This document shows, piece after piece, positions 45,283 through 64,000 of a stretch of 64,000 nucleotides of DNA (position 1 is its first letter; the number at the start of each line of letters is the position of its first letter). Both the position numbers and the translations under genes were made by a program. The stretch is from Mucilaginibacter sp. L3T2-6 (lineage in GTDB: Bacteria; Bacteroidota; Bacteroidia; Sphingobacteriales; Sphingobacteriaceae): NCBI RefSeq assembly GCF_030519355.1, contig NZ_JAUMKC010000015.1, forward strand, positions 1 through 64,000, written 5' to 3'. Under the pieces are notes generated by a model that saw nothing but the letters and a program-made list of their open reading frames with translations, was not told the DNA's origin and did no database searches.

Positions 45283-45723
45283 TTACGGTCTGGACTTAAG
45301 TAGTTCATTCCAGTTATAAATTGTACCCGCTGCGCCATTTTGAAAACGTTTCGCCAGGTTTTCCGAGCCGAAAGCAGCAAGATTTCCACCCATAGGCGAA
45401 GAAACAGTTGGAGCCTCGAGGAATGCAGATTTTCGGGCATCGTTAAATGATCCGGGAGCCTGGTAGTAGCTAACAAACAACAACGCCTGCTTATCGGTTG
45501 CCAGTCCGGGGTTTTCTTTCAGGTAACCTGCCATACATTCGGCGGAATCAAACTTGTATACCTTCCCTTTAGCAGTTACAATTTCGGCAGCAAACCTTTT
45601 GTCCATAATTGTCATTTTACAATGCCAGCAGGCGTCCTTACCATATTGAATAGCTTCCGGACCACGGGAGCAGGCGCTAAACAGCAAGCCGGCGATCGTC
45701 AGGAGTATGCAGATTTTTTTCAT
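45283..45723 (-). CDS. nosL: NosL copper chaperone lipoprotein
   Basis: The 146-residue lipoprotein has the lipobox SACSRGPE and the NosL signature DACWHCKMTIMDKRFAAEI, where the second Cys and the Met form the copper site region. NosL binds Cu(I) in the periplasm and delivers it to the NosZ assembly system. Its start overlaps the upstream membrane-protein gene by 47 bases, and nosD starts 8 bases after its stop. Confidence 0.9.
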   Translation of the reverse strand: MKKICILLTIAGLLFSACSRGPEAIQYGKDACWHCKMTIMDKRFAAEIVTAKGKVYKFDSAECMAGYLKENPGLATDKQALLFVSYYQAPGSFNDARKSAFLEAPTVSSPMGGNLAAFGSENLAKRFQNGAAGTIYNWNELLKSRP

Positions 45724-46288
45724 TGTTGATTTTCGATTTTTTTCTTTTGATAAGCGGCAGTGCGGCTAATACTCCGCCTATACCCACTATAATGCCGCCA
45801 GTGTCGGGGAGTGAGCCTGCTGTAAAATTGAGCAGCTGCTTATAGCCAAACAACGGCGGCTGATAATACATTCCTTCAACCTTTATAGCCGCATGCGGGT
45901 TAAGGTGGTGGCCATAATTATATTCCCAGATATAAAAATCGGTGAAGCCGGCTATGCCAAACAGGCACAGACTCAGGAACCATGTGATGGCCAGTTTGCG
46001 GCTGTTAATAACGGCAGCCACAGCGCCAAGTAAAAGTACCATGCCAAAAGCGTAAGGCAGTATCTTAAACTCTCTAAAGTCCGCTATAGAGATATGTTTC
46101 ATTCCGATATAATGGTTTAAACCATTTATCTGGTCGATATTTCCGGACAAGCCATTGAGCCATATTTTCAATTCAAGTCCTTCAGGATACTGAGGAGCAT
46201 CCAGCAGGATGTGCCATAGCGGAAGCACATATGCGCCCAGCATCAACACGATGCTTGTCCCGATCAGTATCCGCAATACAGGTTTCAT
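45677..46288 (-). CDS. nos-cluster inner-membrane protein of unknown function
   Basis: The 203-residue protein has about four transmembrane helices (LRILIGTSIVLMLGAYVLPL, FGMVLLLGAVAAVINS, WFLSLCLFGIAGFTDFYIW, IIVGIGGVLAALPLI) and periplasmic loops rich in His, Tyr and Pro (YIWEYNYGHHLNPHAAIKVE, YYQPPLFGYKQLL). The loop with EYNYGHHLNPHA could bind copper. It lies between nosZ and nosL and overlaps the latter by 47 bases, so it belongs to the operon. Similar proteins occur in Bacteroidota nos clusters but their role is not known. Confidence 0.8.
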   Translation of the reverse strand: MKPVLRILIGTSIVLMLGAYVLPLWHILLDAPQYPEGLELKIWLNGLSGNIDQINGLNHYIGMKHISIADFREFKILPYAFGMVLLLGAVAAVINSRKLAITWFLSLCLFGIAGFTDFYIWEYNYGHHLNPHAAIKVEGMYYQPPLFGYKQLLNFTAGSLPDTGGIIVGIGGVLAALPLIKRKKSKINNEKNLHTPDDRRLAV

Positions 46289-46301
46289 AATTTTACAATT
46301 T

Positions 46302-46340
46302 TATCACCCGCACGTCTCACGTGGGTCGTAGCGGGTGATA
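46302..46340 (-). promoter_or_regulatory. intercistronic hairpin after nosZ
   Basis: Perfect 10-bp arms TATCACCCGC (46302-46311) and GCGGGTGATA (46331-46340) enclose a 19-base loop. It lies between nosZ and the following membrane-protein gene. There is no T-run on the minus strand, so it more likely stabilises or processes nosZ mRNA, lowering expression of the accessory genes, than terminates fully. Confidence 0.55.
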
Positions 46341-46351
46341 CATTTATATAG

Positions 46352-48334
46352 TTATTGGGTTACAGGGTTTACACCGATGGAAAACTTAAGCGGCGTATCG
46401 GCGCCGGCGGGAGATACCCTGAAGTATCCTTGCATCTCCTGGTGCAGCGCCGAACAAAAATCGGTGCAATAGAATGGGAATATACCGGAGCGGTCCGGGG
46501 TCCACTTCAGCGAGGAGGTTTCGCCCGGCATAATCAGCAATTCAGCATTATTAGCGCCCTTTATTGCAAAACCATGAGGCACGTCCCAGTCCTGTTCAAG
46601 GTTAGTTACATGCACATACACCTCGTCACCCATTTTTATCCCTTCAATATTGTCAGGAGCCAGGTGAGAGCGGATAGCCGTCATATAAACATCCACCCGG
46701 TTGCCGGTACGAACAACCTTTGAATCTTTTTCAGCCCTGGTTACATAAGCATTTTTATTATCCTCTATTTTGAAAAACTTAACCTGGTTTTTCAATATTT
46801 TGTCTGCAGGTATCATCTGACCATAATGAGGCTCGCCGATTGTCGGAAAATCCAGCAGAAGCTTCATTTTTTCGCCCGAAATATCTATCAGCTGACAGGC
46901 CTGCGGAAGTTCGGGACCTGTAGGGAGATACCTGTCCTTAGTTATTTTGTTTAACGATAAAAGGTACTTGCCGTAAGGCTTTTTAGAATCACCGCCAACG
47001 ATGGACAGGTGCCCCGGTGAATAGTAAGATGGTATCCTGTCTATAATTTGCAGATTGTCTATTTTCCATTTTACTACCTCCGACGAAACAAACATGGTGG
47101 TATAAGCGTAGCCTTTACCATCAAATTCGGTATGCAGTGGCCCCAAACCAGGCTGTTTAACCTCGCCATGCAGCACAGATTCATATTTTAATACCGGCAA
47201 CGTGCCGTCAATCATTCCATCGTAATCCTTTTTATCGATGGCAGTCAGCATTTTTTTATAAGAAAATACGGGTATTACCGCGGCGAGTTTTCCGCTGGCA
47301 GCAATATACTCACCATCAGGCGCTACATCTACCCCGTGCGGCGATTTTGGGCATGGCATGTAATATACCAGTCCGGGATATTTTGTCACATCCAGCGTTA
47401 GTGTCCCGCTTTCAATTTGGGAAGAGGCGGTATGGGTCTTTTCGTTGTATACATTATGCGCATATTTAACCGGTGTTTTAACCCCTTTGCCCTGCCTGAT
47501 CAGTTCCTCGGCTTTCTTCCAGTTAATTGCCATAATAAAGTCCTTATCGCGCTGGCTTGCATTAACCTCCAGCAAGGTATTTGCCTCCTCCGTGTTATAG
47601 CAGGTAAAAAATAGCCAATCATGCGATACCCCCTTGCCTGCATGGGCAAGGTCGTAATTAAAGGGAGGAACAATCAGCTGGAACGACAGGTTCATGGAAC
47701 CCGTTCCTTTATCAACTTTAACAAATGATACTGCGCCCTTAAAGGTTTTCTTATAACTATTTATAGGCACATCACCTTTTTCAAAATCCAGCGGTTCGCT
47801 AAACCGGGTGTTACCTACTACATACTCTGTGTTTTCGGTACAAAACGGCGAGGCGTGGTTGCCCCCTATGTTTGGCAGCTCAATAATTTCGTCGGTTTTG
47901 AAAGTAGCAAGGTTAATCCGCGCTATGCGTGGGGTATTATTACCGTTGATAAACAGCCAGCGGCCGTCATCTTCTCCATTGGTTTTAGATAGTTCCGGGT
48001 GGTGCGAATCGTCCCACGGTACAAAACCATGAGAAGTATTCAGCATGGGTTTGGTTTCTTCCGAGTAACCGTAGCCGTTTTCCGGATTTTGGGAAAACAC
48101 AGGAATCACCTTCAGCAAACGCCCCGACGGGATACCATAGGCAGCTACCTGTCCGCTAAATCCTCCGGATAAAAAGGCGTAAACCTCATCATATTTGCCT
48201 GGCGCTACATACACCTTTTGGGCCGCGTCCGCATCTAATTTTGAACCCACTTTCCCGGGTTTACAGGAATAAATTGCCAGCGACGAAAGCAGGATAATGG
48301 CCAGCGGCAAAAGTTTTATAATTGAAATTTTCAT
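46352..48334 (-). CDS. nosZ: clade II (Sec-dependent) nitrous oxide reductase
   Basis: The 660-residue enzyme starts at the ATG at 48334 with a Sec-type lipoprotein-like signal (IILLSSLAIYSCKPG), not a twin-arginine signal. That is the mark of clade II NosZ. The CuA domain motif CTDFCSALHQEM (Cys, Cys, His, Met at about residues 623, 627, 631, 634) follows the ligand His in VPHGFAIKG. CuZ propeller histidines are seen in NIGGNHASPF, CPKSPHGVDVAPDG, GPLHTEFDGKGY, YYSPGHLSIVGG and IGEPHYGQMI. It reduces N2O to N2 in the periplasm as the last step of denitrification. It lies 22 bases after the cytochrome c gene. Confidence 0.96.
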   Translation of the reverse strand: MKISIIKLLPLAIILLSSLAIYSCKPGKVGSKLDADAAQKVYVAPGKYDEVYAFLSGGFSGQVAAYGIPSGRLLKVIPVFSQNPENGYGYSEETKPMLNTSHGFVPWDDSHHPELSKTNGEDDGRWLFINGNNTPRIARINLATFKTDEIIELPNIGGNHASPFCTENTEYVVGNTRFSEPLDFEKGDVPINSYKKTFKGAVSFVKVDKGTGSMNLSFQLIVPPFNYDLAHAGKGVSHDWLFFTCYNTEEANTLLEVNASQRDKDFIMAINWKKAEELIRQGKGVKTPVKYAHNVYNEKTHTASSQIESGTLTLDVTKYPGLVYYMPCPKSPHGVDVAPDGEYIAASGKLAAVIPVFSYKKMLTAIDKKDYDGMIDGTLPVLKYESVLHGEVKQPGLGPLHTEFDGKGYAYTTMFVSSEVVKWKIDNLQIIDRIPSYYSPGHLSIVGGDSKKPYGKYLLSLNKITKDRYLPTGPELPQACQLIDISGEKMKLLLDFPTIGEPHYGQMIPADKILKNQVKFFKIEDNKNAYVTRAEKDSKVVRTGNRVDVYMTAIRSHLAPDNIEGIKMGDEVYVHVTNLEQDWDVPHGFAIKGANNAELLIMPGETSSLKWTPDRSGIFPFYCTDFCSALHQEMQGYFRVSPAGADTPLKFSIGVNPVTQ

Positions 48335-48356
48335 GACATGAAATTTAGAGTTGTGC

Positions 48357-48851
48357 TTATTTTTTATCGTTTTGCCTGAAGTATTCAAGTATCTGGCGTG
48401 TCTCGTCATCAGTTACGTTCTGAAAAGTCATTTGGGTGAGATACTGGGCCAGCAATGCTTTACCTACCGGATCTTTCTGTTCCATTTCAACCGGGTTGGT
48501 AATCTGGTTCATTATCCATTCCGGGGTGCGCCTTTCGGTAACGCCTTTCAGGCCCGGGCCTACTACCCGGTCGGTAGTTACCTTATGGCAAGCGGAGCAT
48601 TTAGCAGTGAATACTGCTTTACCTTTTTCCGCCATGCCGGCATCTATAGCGCCCAACTGCACCGACGTAAATTTGCCGACGCCTTTACTATCGCTTTTCG
48701 CAGCAGGATCTGCACTAACCGCGCTCGCCGCCGCTGTTGATGAAGTATCTGATGAAGACGACTCGCTACCCGAGCCGCCGCAAGCGGATAAAAAAGCGAC
48801 TAATGATATTGTTATTACAGAAATTAATTGTTTGAGTTTCGTTGTCTTCAT
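48357..48851 (-). CDS. c-type cytochrome lipoprotein, first gene of the nos operon
   Basis: The 164-residue product has a lipobox (LVAFLSACGGSG), a Ser/Thr/Ala-rich linker and one heme c domain with motif KCSACHKV (heme near residue 90) and axial Met in YLTQMTFQNV. It should be the electron donor or shuttle to NosZ, by position 22 bases upstream. The start chosen, 48851, begins MKTTKL, and an ATG two codons earlier is also possible. Expression is likely controlled by the Fnr-like site at 48921. Confidence 0.88.
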   Translation of the reverse strand: MKTTKLKQLISVITISLVAFLSACGGSGSESSSSDTSSTAAASAVSADPAAKSDSKGVGKFTSVQLGAIDAGMAEKGKAVFTAKCSACHKVTTDRVVGPGLKGVTERRTPEWIMNQITNPVEMEQKDPVGKALLAQYLTQMTFQNVTDDETRQILEYFRQNDKK

Positions 48852-48868
48852 GATCATTGATTTTTTTG

Positions 48869-48934
48869 TAAAACTATTGGTATACACACGGGCCCGGGGT
48901 GACGTGACTTATTTTAAAATATGATACAAGTCAT
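48869..48934 (-). promoter_or_regulatory. Fnr-like site and -7 element for the nos operon
   Basis: ATGAT-ACAA-GTCAT at 48921-48934 sits within a longer palindrome (nine-base arms). On the minus strand TAGTTTTA at 48869-48876 matches the -7 element in seven of eight positions, 55 bp from the site centre. The first start codon is 48851. The spacing equals that before the P-type ATPase gene and is 22 bp more than at the 33-bp promoters. Confidence 0.65.
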
Positions 48935-54289: not shown

Positions 54290-54355
54290 CAAATTTAGAT
54301 GACAGAATAGTGACCAGCCGCGAGATTAGTCAGTATTTTTAATGATTTTCATCAC
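54290..54355 (-). promoter_or_regulatory. Fnr-like site and -7 element for the P-type ATPase gene
   Basis: ATGAT-TTTC-ATCAC lies at 54342-54355, 186 bases before the ATG. On the minus strand TAAATTTG (54290-54297) is an exact match to TAnnTTTG, with its centre 55 bp from the site centre. The predicted leader, about 125 bases, holds the terminator at 54188. Confidence 0.68.
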
Positions 54356-54621: not shown

Positions 54622-54665
54622 CAAATTTCCGGTTTATTCCGCAGTAAAAGAATGACGGGCATCAA
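54622..54665 (-). promoter_or_regulatory. Fnr-like site and -7 element for the FixH-like gene
   Basis: ATGAC-GGGC-ATCAA at 54652-54665 is centred 54 bases before the start codon. On the minus strand GAAATTTG (54622-54629) is the -7 element, its centre exactly 33 bp from the site centre. Confidence 0.72.
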
Positions 54666-54705: not shown

Positions 54706-54749
54706 TTGACTGCCGTCATAGCAGCGAATATAACCGATAACCATTTTTG
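54706..54749 (+). promoter_or_regulatory. Fnr-like site and -7 element for the FixL-like kinase gene
   Basis: TTGAC-TGCC-GTCAT at 54706-54719 is followed by CATTTTTG (54742-54749), with centres exactly 33 bp apart. The kinase start lies about 90 bases beyond. Together with the adjacent site at 54652 this makes a divergent promoter pair. Confidence 0.72.
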
Positions 54750-54840: not shown

Positions 54841-55944
54841 ATGGTTACGCGAGCATATTTAATCAACATGGATAATCCCGAACTTCTTACAGCTGTGTTT
54901 GAGCATGCGATTGATGGCATCGTCGTAATCGATGAAAAAGGTAAAATCCGGATGGCTAATCCTGCCGTTTGCGACCTTTTTGGATACAGTCAAGACGAGT
55001 TGGCCGGCCAAAGCATCAACCTGCTCATGGATCCGGCAGACGCCCGGCACCATGATAATTATCTTGATGATTACCGGCAGACCAGGGTGCCTGTGATCAT
55101 CGGCAAAGGCAGGGATCTGAAAGGCAGAAAAAAGGATGGTTCAATATTTCCCTTCCGTTTGGCGGTTAGTGAATTCACCAATAAATGTCAAACTTATTAT
55201 GCCGGCATAGTGCATGACTTAAGCAAACAGAAACAAGCAGAACTATCCCTCGACCATGAACAAAACCTTAACCAGGTAAAGACAAGACTCTTATCAATGG
55301 CGTCGCACGAGCTTCGTTCGCCGCTCAGCCGCGTGCAATTATCTGCCTCGCTTATTGAACGCTATTATGAACGGCTTGATAAGGATAAGATAATCGGTCA
55401 TTTAAGAAAAATAAAAATAGCCGTCGACGACATGACCGCTTCATTGAACGACTTCCTTTCTATCGAAAGAATAGAAGCCGGTAATATAAAAGCTGATAAC
55501 AAGGTGTTTGACCTGGCGTTATTTGCATCAGACCTAACTGAAGAGATGCAACAACAAGCAAGAGCCGGCATTCAAATTAAATACACCAGTACTGCTGATA
55601 ATACCACGGTTTGTCTTGATCAAACGCTTCTGCGGCACTGCCTGGTTAACCTGCTCTCTAATGCAATTAAATATTCAAAGGAAACCGGCGCCATTGAATT
55701 CACTACAGACATCTCCGCAACAAACTGCATAATTACAGTAAAAGATGAAGGCATTGGCATACCCGAGCAGGATCAGCAATATATCTTCGAACCGTTTTTC
55801 AGGGCTGCCAACGCGATTGATATACAAGGCACCGGTCTCGGCCTCAATATTGTTAAAAACTACGTACAGCTTATGGGCGGAGAAATTACTTTCAAAAGCC
55901 GGGAACAGATAGGGACATCATTTACCCTCAGCTTCAGGCAATAA
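54841..55944 (+). CDS. FixL-like heme-PAS sensor histidine kinase
   Basis: The 367-residue kinase has a PAS domain (about residues 12-130), a HisKA domain (LLSMASHELRSPLSRVQLSA, His156) and a HATPase domain (LVNLLSNAIKYS, DEGIGIP, GTGLGLNIVKNY). Within the PAS domain RHHDNYLDDYR and IIGKGRDLKGRKKDGSIFP follow the FixL pattern. His71 aligns with the heme ligand His200 of Bradyrhizobium FixL and Arg91 with its regulatory Arg220, exactly 20 residues apart as in FixL. It therefore likely binds heme and senses O2. No transmembrane segment is seen. Its response regulator is not in the window. ATG 54868 is an alternative start. Confidence 0.88.
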   Translation: MVTRAYLINMDNPELLTAVFEHAIDGIVVIDEKGKIRMANPAVCDLFGYSQDELAGQSINLLMDPADARHHDNYLDDYRQTRVPVIIGKGRDLKGRKKDGSIFPFRLAVSEFTNKCQTYYAGIVHDLSKQKQAELSLDHEQNLNQVKTRLLSMASHELRSPLSRVQLSASLIERYYERLDKDKIIGHLRKIKIAVDDMTASLNDFLSIERIEAGNIKADNKVFDLALFASDLTEEMQQQARAGIQIKYTSTADNTTVCLDQTLLRHCLVNLLSNAIKYSKETGAIEFTTDISATNCIITVKDEGIGIPEQDQQYIFEPFFRAANAIDIQGTGLGLNIVKNYVQLMGGEITFKSREQIGTSFTLSFRQ

Positions 55945-57381
55945 AGGGACTGTAAACAAGAGCTCCTTTTCATACTGTTTTACTATCCTCGCGGTTAGTT
56001 TCAATTCATCTTTAATTTTTACGCGTAGCGCTTCCTGTGCGCAGGGCTCGCCATGTACAAGAAAAACACTGGGCTTACCACTTTTAAACTGCTTAAGCCA
56101 GCTTAACAGTTCAGTTTGATCAGCGTGTGCAGACAAACCCTCAATTTCCCTTATTTGTGCCTTTACCGGGTAATATTGCCCGTGTATCTTTACTTCATGC
56201 GCCTGGTTAAGAAGTGCCCTGCCACGGGTACCCTCAGCCTGGAATCCTATTAGCAATATGGTGTTACGCGCATCACCTAAATAATGCTTCAGATATTCAA
56301 GCACCCGGCCGCCGGTTAACATACCGCTGGCAGCCATAATAATCTTGCTCCCACGCCGGCGGATGATCTTTTCGGTGTCCTGATACTCCTGGTTAATGGT
56401 TACGCCATTAAACATCCGGGCGCATTCCTTTTTATCAATAGCAAACCACTCTGGGTAATGCTGCAGTACTTTGCCTGCCGAAGCCGCCATGGGGCTGTCC
56501 AGGTATTCCGGTACCGGTGCAGGAATTTGGCGCTGTTGTTTCAGGCGATAAATCAGATGCATTACTTCCTGCGCACGGCCCACAGCAAAACACGGGATCA
56601 ATATGTTACCCTTGTTAAATACTGTATCGTTAATTACCAAAGCCAGTTCCTGGGCTGTGTCGGTCTGTGCATGCAGGCGGTCGCCATAGGTCGACTCCAT
56701 GATCACAAAATCGGCACGTGATAATGGTTCCGGTGCGGGCAGCAACTCGGAAATTTTGCGCCCGATATCGCCGGAAAATATAAGCGTCTTTCCGTAACAA
56801 TTTATCCTGACAGAGCAAGCGCCCGGGATGTGTCCGGCAGGATGCAAACTGAAACTAAGCCAGTCATTTAAAGGTAGCTCGGTATCAATTTCGCAAACTT
56901 CAAAAAAAGGGAGCGCGGCCTCTGCATCCTTTACAGTGTACAGTGGCTTGGCAGGGTGGTGCTTAGAATAACCGTGCCTGTTGGCTTTCTCGGCGTCTTC
57001 TTCCTGCAGCTTAGCGCAGTCCCGCAAAATAAGCTCAGCCAGGTCTCGCGTCGGACGGCTCATATAAATTTTCTTCCGGTAACCGTTCTTTACCAGTAAA
57101 GGAATGTAACCACAGTGGTCCAGGTGCGCATGTGTAAGGATCAGTGCGTCTATATCAGTTGGATTAACCGGCAGGGGTTCCCAGTTTTTTTCCCTTAACG
57201 CCTTTATACCCTGAAAGAGGCCGCAATCAATCATGACGTTCATTCCAGGCGTCAGCAGCAAATGCTTTGAGCCTGTTACGGTTCCGGCCGCTCCAAGCGA
57301 CTGAAGGTAAACTGCAGCCTGTTCAACGGCAGGATTCCCCGATATGGGTGTCCACTCGCTAGCGTGTTTTTTCATGTTCAT
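55918..57381 (-). CDS. MBL-fold metallo-hydrolase with RNA-specificity domain
   Basis: The 487-residue protein has the metallo-beta-lactamase motif ALILTHAHLDHCGYIPLL near residues 80-97, then HPAGHIPGACSV, FSGDIGR, a beta-CASP domain (IMAASGMLTGGRVLEYL) and the C-terminal motif GLSAHADQTELLSWL. These mark the beta-CASP ribonuclease group (YSH1-like) that processes RNA. Its stop overlaps the end of the convergent kinase gene by 27 bases. An Fnr-like site sits 48 bases before its start, opposite that of hsp20. Confidence 0.9.
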   Translation of the reverse strand: MNMKKHASEWTPISGNPAVEQAAVYLQSLGAAGTVTGSKHLLLTPGMNVMIDCGLFQGIKALREKNWEPLPVNPTDIDALILTHAHLDHCGYIPLLVKNGYRKKIYMSRPTRDLAELILRDCAKLQEEDAEKANRHGYSKHHPAKPLYTVKDAEAALPFFEVCEIDTELPLNDWLSFSLHPAGHIPGACSVRINCYGKTLIFSGDIGRKISELLPAPEPLSRADFVIMESTYGDRLHAQTDTAQELALVINDTVFNKGNILIPCFAVGRAQEVMHLIYRLKQQRQIPAPVPEYLDSPMAASAGKVLQHYPEWFAIDKKECARMFNGVTINQEYQDTEKIIRRRGSKIIMAASGMLTGGRVLEYLKHYLGDARNTILLIGFQAEGTRGRALLNQAHEVKIHGQYYPVKAQIREIEGLSAHADQTELLSWLKQFKSGKPSVFLVHGEPCAQEALRVKIKDELKLTARIVKQYEKELLFTVPLLPEAEGK

Positions 57382-57393
57382 TTTTTTATGATC

Positions 57394-57436
57394 TAAAGTA
57401 ACGCCGGATTAAAACAACAGAACTGACTAATATCAC
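57394..57436 (-). promoter_or_regulatory. Fnr-like site and weak -7 element for the MBL-fold gene
   Basis: CTGAC-TAAT-ATCAC at 57423-57436 is centred 48 bases before the ATG at 57381. The best -7 candidate on the minus strand, TTACTTTA (57394-57401), matches six of eight positions at 32 bp. It is weaker than the other sites but on the right face of the divergent promoter. Confidence 0.5.
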
Positions 57437-57444
57437 GGTGTGGC

Positions 57445-57488
57445 TTGATTACAGTCATAGCCAGGATTTTGCTCTCCAACGAAATTTG
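57445..57488 (+). promoter_or_regulatory. Fnr-like site and -7 element for hsp20
   Basis: TTGAT-TACA-GTCAT at 57445-57458 is followed by GAAATTTG (57481-57488), with centres exactly 33 bp apart. The start codon of hsp20 is 65 bases from the site centre. Confidence 0.75.
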
Positions 57489-63753: not shown

Positions 63754-63797
63754 ATGATCTGGGTCATTCTTTAAACAACAGGCGTGGGTCATTTTTG
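63754..63797 (+). promoter_or_regulatory. Fnr-like site and -7 element for the SDR gene
   Basis: ATGAT-CTGG-GTCAT at 63754-63767 is followed by CATTTTTG (63790-63797), with centres exactly 33 bp apart, the same -7 sequence and spacing as before the FixL-like kinase. The start codon at 63821 is 60 bases from the site centre. Confidence 0.75.
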
Positions 63798-63820: not shown

Positions 63821-64000
63821 ATGAAGCTATTATCACAAAAGGTAGCCCTTGTGACCGGGGCCGGATCGGGAATTGGGAAAGCAATTGCTGAACTATTCGC
63901 AGTGCAGGGGGCGACAGTAGTACTGACTGATATTCATCAATCAAATATTGAAGCGGTGGCCGCAGAGATTACCGCGAAAGGGAATACGGCTGTATGCGTG
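63821..64000 (+). CDS. short-chain dehydrogenase/reductase, cut by the window end
   Basis: Sixty codons are visible. They encode [20 protein letters not shown], the Rossmann TGxxxGIG NAD(P)-binding motif of classical SDRs at residues 12-19, then VVLTDIHQ, where the Asp suggests NAD preference. The rest lies beyond the window. The substrate cannot be told. Its own Fnr-like promoter joins it to the low-oxygen set. Confidence 0.88.

Follow-up and report, generated by a model that had tools for sequence, protein, structure and literature searches.

An orphan histidine kinase with a likely FixL-type haem PAS domain in a putative low-oxygen island of a Bacteroidota genome

In the 64,000-nucleotide stretch of DNA analysed here (the window), an open reading frame at 54841-55944 (+) raises the question of what the encoded kinase senses, to which regulator it passes its signal and whether its own gene is among those that it controls. 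The reading that we favour, with a probability of roughly 0.55, is that of a cytoplasmic haem-PAS kinase that would report oxygen, signal in trans to a fusion of a receiver with a CRP/FNR module (Rec-CRP) and so have the surrounding island and its own gene switched on; it is drawn from the sequence and from analogy with FixL. The domain itself is common, and what merits follow-up is the architecture of the partner, the promoter code and the linker of this orphan kinase.

The frame (367 aa) is intact in the reading-frame check, and Pfam finds PAS (residues 16-126), HisKA (147-214) and HATPase_c (260-366) domains in it, in agreement with the sequence-only reading, which had called it a histidine kinase with a PAS domain and no membrane anchor. 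The absence of an anchor is borne out by the highest 19-residue Kyte-Doolittle mean, which is only 1.06, and a soluble, cytoplasmic PAS-HisKA-HATPase kinase is supported. Since M10 is aligned with a Met in all nine aligned relatives, and residues 1-10 of the model have a pLDDT below 50 and are disordered before M10, ATG 54868 is the likelier start codon and probably the real one; counted from it, the putative haem-ligand His and the Arg (H71 and R91 in the numbering used here) are residues 62 and 82. The coordinates of the features are collected in Table 1.

Table 1. Positions in the window of the kinase, its domains and the neighbouring promoter elements
Feature	Position	Strand	Remarks
Orphan FixL-like sensor histidine kinase	54868..55944	+	Probable true start ATG 54868 (ORF from 54841)
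PAS domain, likely FixL-type haem PAS	54886..55218	+	From sequence and fold of the model
H71 codon (BjFixL H200, proximal haem ligand)	55051..55053	+	Alignment
R91 codon (BjFixL R220)	55111..55113	+	Alignment
Shortened stretch from DIT-like Asp (D126) to phospho-His (H156)	55219..55308	+	30 residues vs 66/73/80/87
HisKA/DHp with H156	55279..55482	+	HELRSPL; HEFRTPL in nine aligned relatives
HATPase_c catalytic domain	55618..55938	+	Pfam
FNR-like site of the kinase promoter (TGACTGCCGTCA)	54707..54718	+	Perfect box
-7-like element CATTTTTG	54742..54749	+	5/6 of TAnnTTTG; distance to site centre exactly 29 bp
FNR-like site of the FixH-like gene	54653..54664	-	-7-like GAAATTTG at 54622-54629 (-), distance 29
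FixH-like small gene, 74 aa	54380..54604	-	Pfam FixH 24.6 bits, cut-off 23
FNR-like site, P-type ATPase promoter	54343..54354	-	TAAATTTG at 54290-54297 (-), distance 51
Tandem FNR-like sites 22 bp apart	57424..57457	.	-7-like elements (5/6) at 29/51 bp, both sides
FNR-like site and -7-like CATTTTTG at 29	63755..63797	+	Before the dehydrogenase-like gene at 63821

The segments RHHDNY and IIGKGR are both present in the PAS domain, with H71 and R91 20 residues apart. In the alignment H71 falls on H200 of Bradyrhizobium FixL (BjFixL) on Fα, and R91 falls on the Gβ Arg R220, so that the haem ligand and the regulatory arginine claimed for this kinase are indeed kept at the claimed distance. In this numbering we take H200 to be the proximal His and R220 the Gβ Arg, which in DosP is presumably R97; R220 is the residue of FixL that pairs with oxygen. 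The positions of I215, L236 and I238, which we take to be the distal hydrophobic residues of the FixL haem pocket, are occupied by I86, L107 and V109. R206, H214 and I218 of FixL are not kept in the alignment, D77, V85 and K89 standing in their place; the first two are presumably near the haem, and position 206 varies among 62 close homologues (R in 38, N in 18). The genome has 38 PAS places (PF00989), some of them fragments, and since alignment with the FixL PAS finds His and Arg together at the FixL positions in only two of them, the window kinase and a paralogue on contig C39, the pair is not due to chance. In the loci covered, both residues are also kept in 61 of 62 distinct homologous segments that are at least 40% identical (the remaining alignment stops short of both positions) and in 4 of 25 that are less than 40% identical; identical segments and the window's own segment were skipped in these counts.

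The best PDB sequence matches of the window PAS are BjFixL (5.5e-23), SmFixL (1.5e-17) and DosP (1.5e-14), and the next (6.7e-8) is more than six orders weaker than this set. The matches of the full-length model were dominated by kinase structures and the fold was therefore queried with a PAS-only AlphaFold model (14 sequences, pLDDT 88.9). FixL or DosP chains are the top 29 of the 50 Foldseek matches listed, and the model agrees with 1drm to 1.4 A, so that the comparison with FixL structures, which had been proposed as a check, favours the claim on a model without ligand. As the His and Arg are kept and the closest PDB sequences and folds are those of FixL and DosP, haem binding is likely and the domain is probably a FixL-type haem PAS.

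FixL oxygen sensing is known mainly from proteobacteria, and the sequence-only reading had described it as best known in rhizobia. According to the available part of one paper, the Fα His is the primary determinant of haem binding in the FixL/DosP PAS cluster, and more than 9,700 sequences of this cluster (60%) keep it (PMC10468136). Together with matches in 79 of the 395 sampled genomes of the class (E <= 1e-18, PAS query, this genome included), these sequences indicate that the FixL-type PAS is widespread and not peculiar to rhizobia, and the window PAS is, as far as its sequence tells, an ordinary member of this kind. The counts come from PAS-only searches because a whole-protein search of an 84,980-species collection gave mostly kinase-domain matches; in that search the best 11 of 80 named loci (L044-L054) were labelled as Bacteroidota and the rest were mixed, matching mostly in the kinase part. 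A plasmid collection yielded 369 records with a PAS match of less than 60% identity, most commonly from Rhizobium (102) and Sinorhizobium (77).

The kinase had also been described as lying inside a low-oxygen island. Contig C6, to which the window belongs, carries stress and respiration genes between the cluster of nitrous-oxide-reductase type and about 100 kb, namely those for hemerythrin, Nramp, P-type ATPase, beta-CASP nuclease, Hsp20, PPDK, phosphate acetyltransferase, BON and USP proteins (one each checked by Pfam, the others by eye). Within the window a NosZ propeller, NosD and NosL are encoded at 45283-48887 (-); some 5-11 kb separate the kinase from these genes and from one for a DUF2249-ScdA_N-hemerythrin protein, all of them upstream of it. 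The gene content does read as low-oxygen, and it is from this content that we infer the label. The N2O-reduction cluster and the hemerythrin gene could suit a kinase whose haem senses NO or CO instead of oxygen, and on the proximal side of the pocket positions 206 and 214 are not as in FixL. We give this alternative little credence, as the residues of the distal side (I, L, V, R) are like those of FixL and include the counterpart of its oxygen-pairing R220, and as the C39 paralogue adjoins cbb3-oxidase, FixG, FixH and radical-SAM (HemN-like) genes and not genes of denitrification.

Pfam finds no response regulator among the genes adjoining the window kinase, for which an orphan FixJ-like partner had been suggested. 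The relatives of the kinase point to a different protein. The C39 paralogue overlaps by four bases the gene of a 350-aa regulator made up of Response_reg, cNMP_binding and HTH_Crp domains (Pfam), with FNR and FixK-like NCBIfam matches below the cut-offs; its further neighbours encode COX1 and FixO (cbb3 oxidase), FixG, FixH, a radical-SAM protein (HemN-like by eye) and a P-type ATPase. A Rec-CRP gene lies downstream, on the same strand and within 6 kb, mostly at next-gene distance, at 51 of 59 FixL-type places, these 59 being the ones that could be scored among 83; for the remaining 24 the list as printed gave no Rec-CRP place. FixJ had been considered as the partner of the relatives and was dropped, since Pfam shows CNB and HTH_Crp in the partner. 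Of the 395 genomes sampled from the class, 198 have Rec-CRP; it is present in 77 of the 79 that carry a FixL-type PAS versus 121 of the 316 others. These 121 of the 198 Rec-CRP genomes have no FixL-type match at E <= 1e-18, so that Rec-CRP may often have another sensor. Each of the 22 Rec-CRPs examined has the phosphoacceptor motif and one to three cysteines, too few for the FNR-type Fe-S set, and the recognition helix E-T-V/I-S-R is present in 10 of the 12 that were picked by place; ten rows found by regular expression were left out of the helix count, since their pattern includes the helix. Judged by its domains, Rec-CRP looks like FixJ and FixK combined in a single protein. Among the matches listed in the open-access literature there was no paper that describes a Rec-CRP partner for a FixL from Bacteroidota, which does not prove that none exists.

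Directly downstream of the window kinase there is no Rec-CRP gene, and together with its orthologue in genome G174 it makes up two of the eight non-adjacent cases. The window kinase and three kinases found in congeneric species form an orphan clade (support 100/99), which stands next to a clade of 37 other kinases (98/94), the two clades together being supported at 97/91; the window kinase sits on a long end branch (1.76). It is an orphan paralogue of the same lineage as the Rec-CRP-paired kinases. The orphan of G049 lies about 3 kb from a paired kinase and is followed by beta-CASP, Hsp20, PPDK and DUF308-like genes (by eye), that of G174 is followed by an Hsp20-like gene, and that of G050 is divergent from, and adjoins, a paired kinase. 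In the present genome there is a second Rec-CRP gene at C6:83640-84683, inside the island, the first being at C39:209448. The partner could instead be another regulator, for example the single-domain receiver at C6:83229-83594, through which the kinase would feed a phosphorelay. This receiver of 121 aa adjoins a PAS-PAS kinase in the same island, and a related kinase that has the His without the Arg (L161) also has a single receiver beside it; however, the receiver on C6 directly follows its own kinase and the DHp of the window kinase groups with those of Rec-CRP-paired kinases, which makes a phosphorelay rather improbable.

The Fnr-like site that had been placed before the kinase is present, as TGACTGCCGTCA at 54707. 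TAnnTTTG is the -7 element of Bacteroidota, and the proposal that the kinase is both sensor and target gains support at the sequence level from this box, by its exact distance of 29 bp from a -7-like element. That the kinase gene is a target of an FNR-like regulator is accordingly a prediction with support from its promoter. The site at 54653 had also been tried as the box of the kinase and was dropped, as no -7-like element on the kinase side stands 29 or 51 bp away from it and it suits the FixH-like gene, which lies between the P-type ATPase gene and the kinase and has similar frames in loci L036 and L026. The tandem at 57424-57457 is flanked by genes for Hsp20 (57517, +) and for the beta-CASP nuclease (ending at 57381, -). 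A further FNR-like site, at 48922, lies 51 bp from a -7-like element in a one-mismatch search and belongs to the side of the NosZ-type cluster at 45283-48887 (-).

With no prior motif, the top two inverted repeats in the intergenic DNA of 12 sources are TGAC-N4-GTCA (13 vs 0.53 expected) and TGAT-N4-ATCA (26 vs 1.59 expected); in the window alone the FNR-like motif is not among the top inverted repeats. TGAYNNNNRTCA occurs 13 times in the window versus 2.7 times in shuffles, none of 100 shuffles reaching 13, and 3 of the 13 boxes are inside genes. Box pairs up to 120 bp apart are spaced by exactly 22 bp in 8 of 11 cases on C6 and in 12 of 25 at 15 further loci, of which this genome supplies four. 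The genome as a whole has 11 perfect 22-bp tandems, 8 of them within C6:57424-97675, and the reversed control has 0. Several tandems of that section precede USP, BON, Hsp20 and nuclease genes. Of the 49 matches to TAnnTTTG of at least 5/6 that the pieces of this genome show over 102 distances from the box centre, 13 lie at 29 bp and another 13 at 51 bp; for ten loci from elsewhere than this genome the figures are 13 and 17, respectively, of 100. The sources of these counts were picked for FixL/Rec-CRP or for tandems, which biases the sites seen and not their distances. A genome-wide search with one mismatch gave 48 instances of the 29-bp form (control 9; 13 on C6) and 35 of the 51-bp form (control 9; 12 on C6). 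No gene start lies within 260 bp in 22 of the 60 genome-wide loci of box and -7 element that were examined, so that not every match need work.

Seven of the 11 window promoters scanned fit the 29/51 code, namely those of the kinase, the FixH-like gene, the P-type ATPase, the beta-CASP nuclease, Hsp20, an MlaE-type gene (box 7/8) and the gene at 63821. The promoters of PPDK, of the gene at 48887, of the hemerythrin gene and of Nramp do not fit at threshold; PPDK starts 50 bp behind Hsp20, and the 51-bp form would suit the 48887 gene if it started later. As for the three other orphans, a box at 29/51 bp directly precedes the orphan gene in G050, and in G049 and G174 the box precedes the gene upstream of the orphan. 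FixL genes with an adjoining Rec-CRP have such a box at threshold in 2 of 7 cases and none in 5, and none at threshold is found at the Rec-CRP gene of C6. On balance the promoter code supports activation, with the proximal box predicted near -41 and the distal one 22 bp above. The code, made up of box, 29 or 51 bp, -7 element and 22-bp tandem, could predict low-oxygen genes of these bacteria.

Which protein would bind these boxes was approached through the genomes that carry them. At least five tandems are found in 32 of 198 genomes with Rec-CRP and in 1 of 196 without, leaving out G375, which was excluded from the tandem comparisons because its 109 tandem matches versus 61 in the reversed control are probably a repeat family; all these counts treat genomes as independent, uncorrected for relatedness. 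A second class of candidates is offered by two Cys-rich FNR-like proteins of this genome (C33:171970-172653, next to a gene whose product we take to be NirD by its look, and C22:260504-261160). It is conceivable, although we consider it unlikely, that these two, as oxygen-sensing Fe-S proteins, switch the island and the kinase gene, and that the kinase acts elsewhere as a haem-PAS oxygen sensor. Both carry an N-terminal CxxxxCxxCxxC with a further Cys, and the presence of FNR-like proteins tracks tandems both where Rec-CRP is absent (one tandem or more in 45 of 100 genomes with FNR versus 9 of 96 without) and where it is present (five or more in 27 of 126 versus 5 of 72). However, their recognition helices are ETVFR and ETFFK and not ETVSR, and among FNR-bearing genomes at least five tandems go with Rec-CRP (27 of 126 with it versus 1 of 100 without), whereas in genomes without Rec-CRP the presence of FNR makes no difference at this threshold (1 of 100 versus 0 of 96). 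Moreover one Rec-CRP gene is inside the island. Rec-CRP is therefore the better candidate for the predicted binding of the boxes, and not the sole one.

The stretch between the Asp of the DIT-like motif and the phospho-His sets the window kinase apart. A distance was obtained for 44 of 52 rows (8 gave none), and in all 43 measured relatives it is 66 (36 rows), 73, 80 or 87 residues, always 7n+3. With 30 residues (7n+2), 36 fewer than the commonest length, the window kinase does not follow this rule of the Rec-CRP-paired kinases. Four residues past the phospho-His it has Ser, versus Thr in nine of nine aligned relatives, and its DHp is identical to that of the C39 paralogue at 41 of 70 positions. 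In the FixL-derived kinase YF1, 7n linkers are described as signal-repressed and 7n+1 linkers as inverted in the available part of the source (PMC6798134). The heptad shift is minus one in the window kinase versus plus one in inverted YF1, and since the linker does not keep the heptad register, FixL is no guide to the sign of the response here. It is a long shot that two haem kinases of opposite or shifted sign, the paired FixL of C39 and the orphan of the window, act on one Rec-CRP regulator. If this were so, and if the orphan were driven by the regulon, it would act as an inherent brake or booster and make a plain low-oxygen switch graded or self-limiting. The linker is in itself a natural experiment on linker length in haem kinases.

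The odd linker, the Ser in place of Thr and the long end branch would also be expected of a decaying duplicate that has been uncoupled from its signal by linker loss and fast evolution. Such decay appears improbable to us, as the frame is open, the kinase motifs and haem-site residues are kept, the promoter box is at the exact distance and three orthologues in other species have open frames as well.

Under the preferred reading, that of an oxygen-reporting kinase with Rec-CRP as its partner, the Fe(II) haem held by H71 would bind oxygen, and R91 would pair with the bound oxygen and swing away on its release. The change at the haem would pass through the short helical linker to H156, all three steps being modelled on FixL. 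The phosphate would then go in trans, most likely to a Rec-CRP copy, either C39:209448 or C6:83640, the latter lying in the island of the kinase at a distance of about 28 kb. Once phosphorylated, Rec-CRP would recognise TGAYNNNNRTCA boxes that stand 29 and/or 51 bp before -7 elements, and would activate island genes, namely those for Hsp20 (with PPDK 50 bp behind), the beta-CASP nuclease, USPs, the P-type ATPase and the kinase gene. The kinase may thus help to run the programme that turns its own gene on, which would make a feedback loop.

Like the FixL of Bradyrhizobium and Sinorhizobium, the window kinase has the proximal His, the Gβ Arg and the distal I/L/V followed by a histidine kinase, and its C39 paralogue adjoins cbb3 (FixO), FixG and FixH genes. 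Unlike rhizobial FixL it is soluble, has R206 and H214 replaced and has no FixJ with a LuxR-type HTH beside it; with the NCBIfam FixL model NF041777 it scores 138 bits, below the cut-off of 850. In the FixL-FixJ-FixK cascade of rhizobia FixJ switches on a separate fixK gene. In the hFixL-FxkR-FixK cascade this is done by FxkR, as far as the available part of the source goes (PMC7888657). Both cascades resemble the circuit proposed here in low oxygen, a haem kinase and an FNR-family protein switching cbb3-oxidase genes, but differ in that here the receiver and the CRP/FNR module are fused. With both in one protein no transcription of a second regulator would be needed, and the data point to a circuit shorter than the rhizobial one, from haem kinase to receiver-FNR fusion.

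The kinases of DosR use GAF haem. The low-oxygen-activated (lxa) locus of Burkholderia and the mycobacterial DosR regulon share USPs, a heat-shock protein and a BON protein with the island, and in Burkholderia dolosa a FixK homologue is under FixLJ; these systems are from other phyla, and the part of the source available makes no mention of a Rec-CRP fusion (PMC6127331). DosP of E. coli (EcDOS) falls in the same PAS cluster, has the His ligand and is described in the excerpt at hand as oxygen-sensing (PMC10468136), but its output is a c-di-GMP phosphodiesterase and that of the window protein is a kinase.

Among the named loci, the PAS parts of L012, L044 and L046 keep the His and have Met or Leu in place of the Gβ Arg (R[PS]MGxG[LM]). 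The L012 kinase is the L161 protein mentioned above, with its adjoining single-domain receiver, and the same arrangement seems, by eye, to hold for L163.
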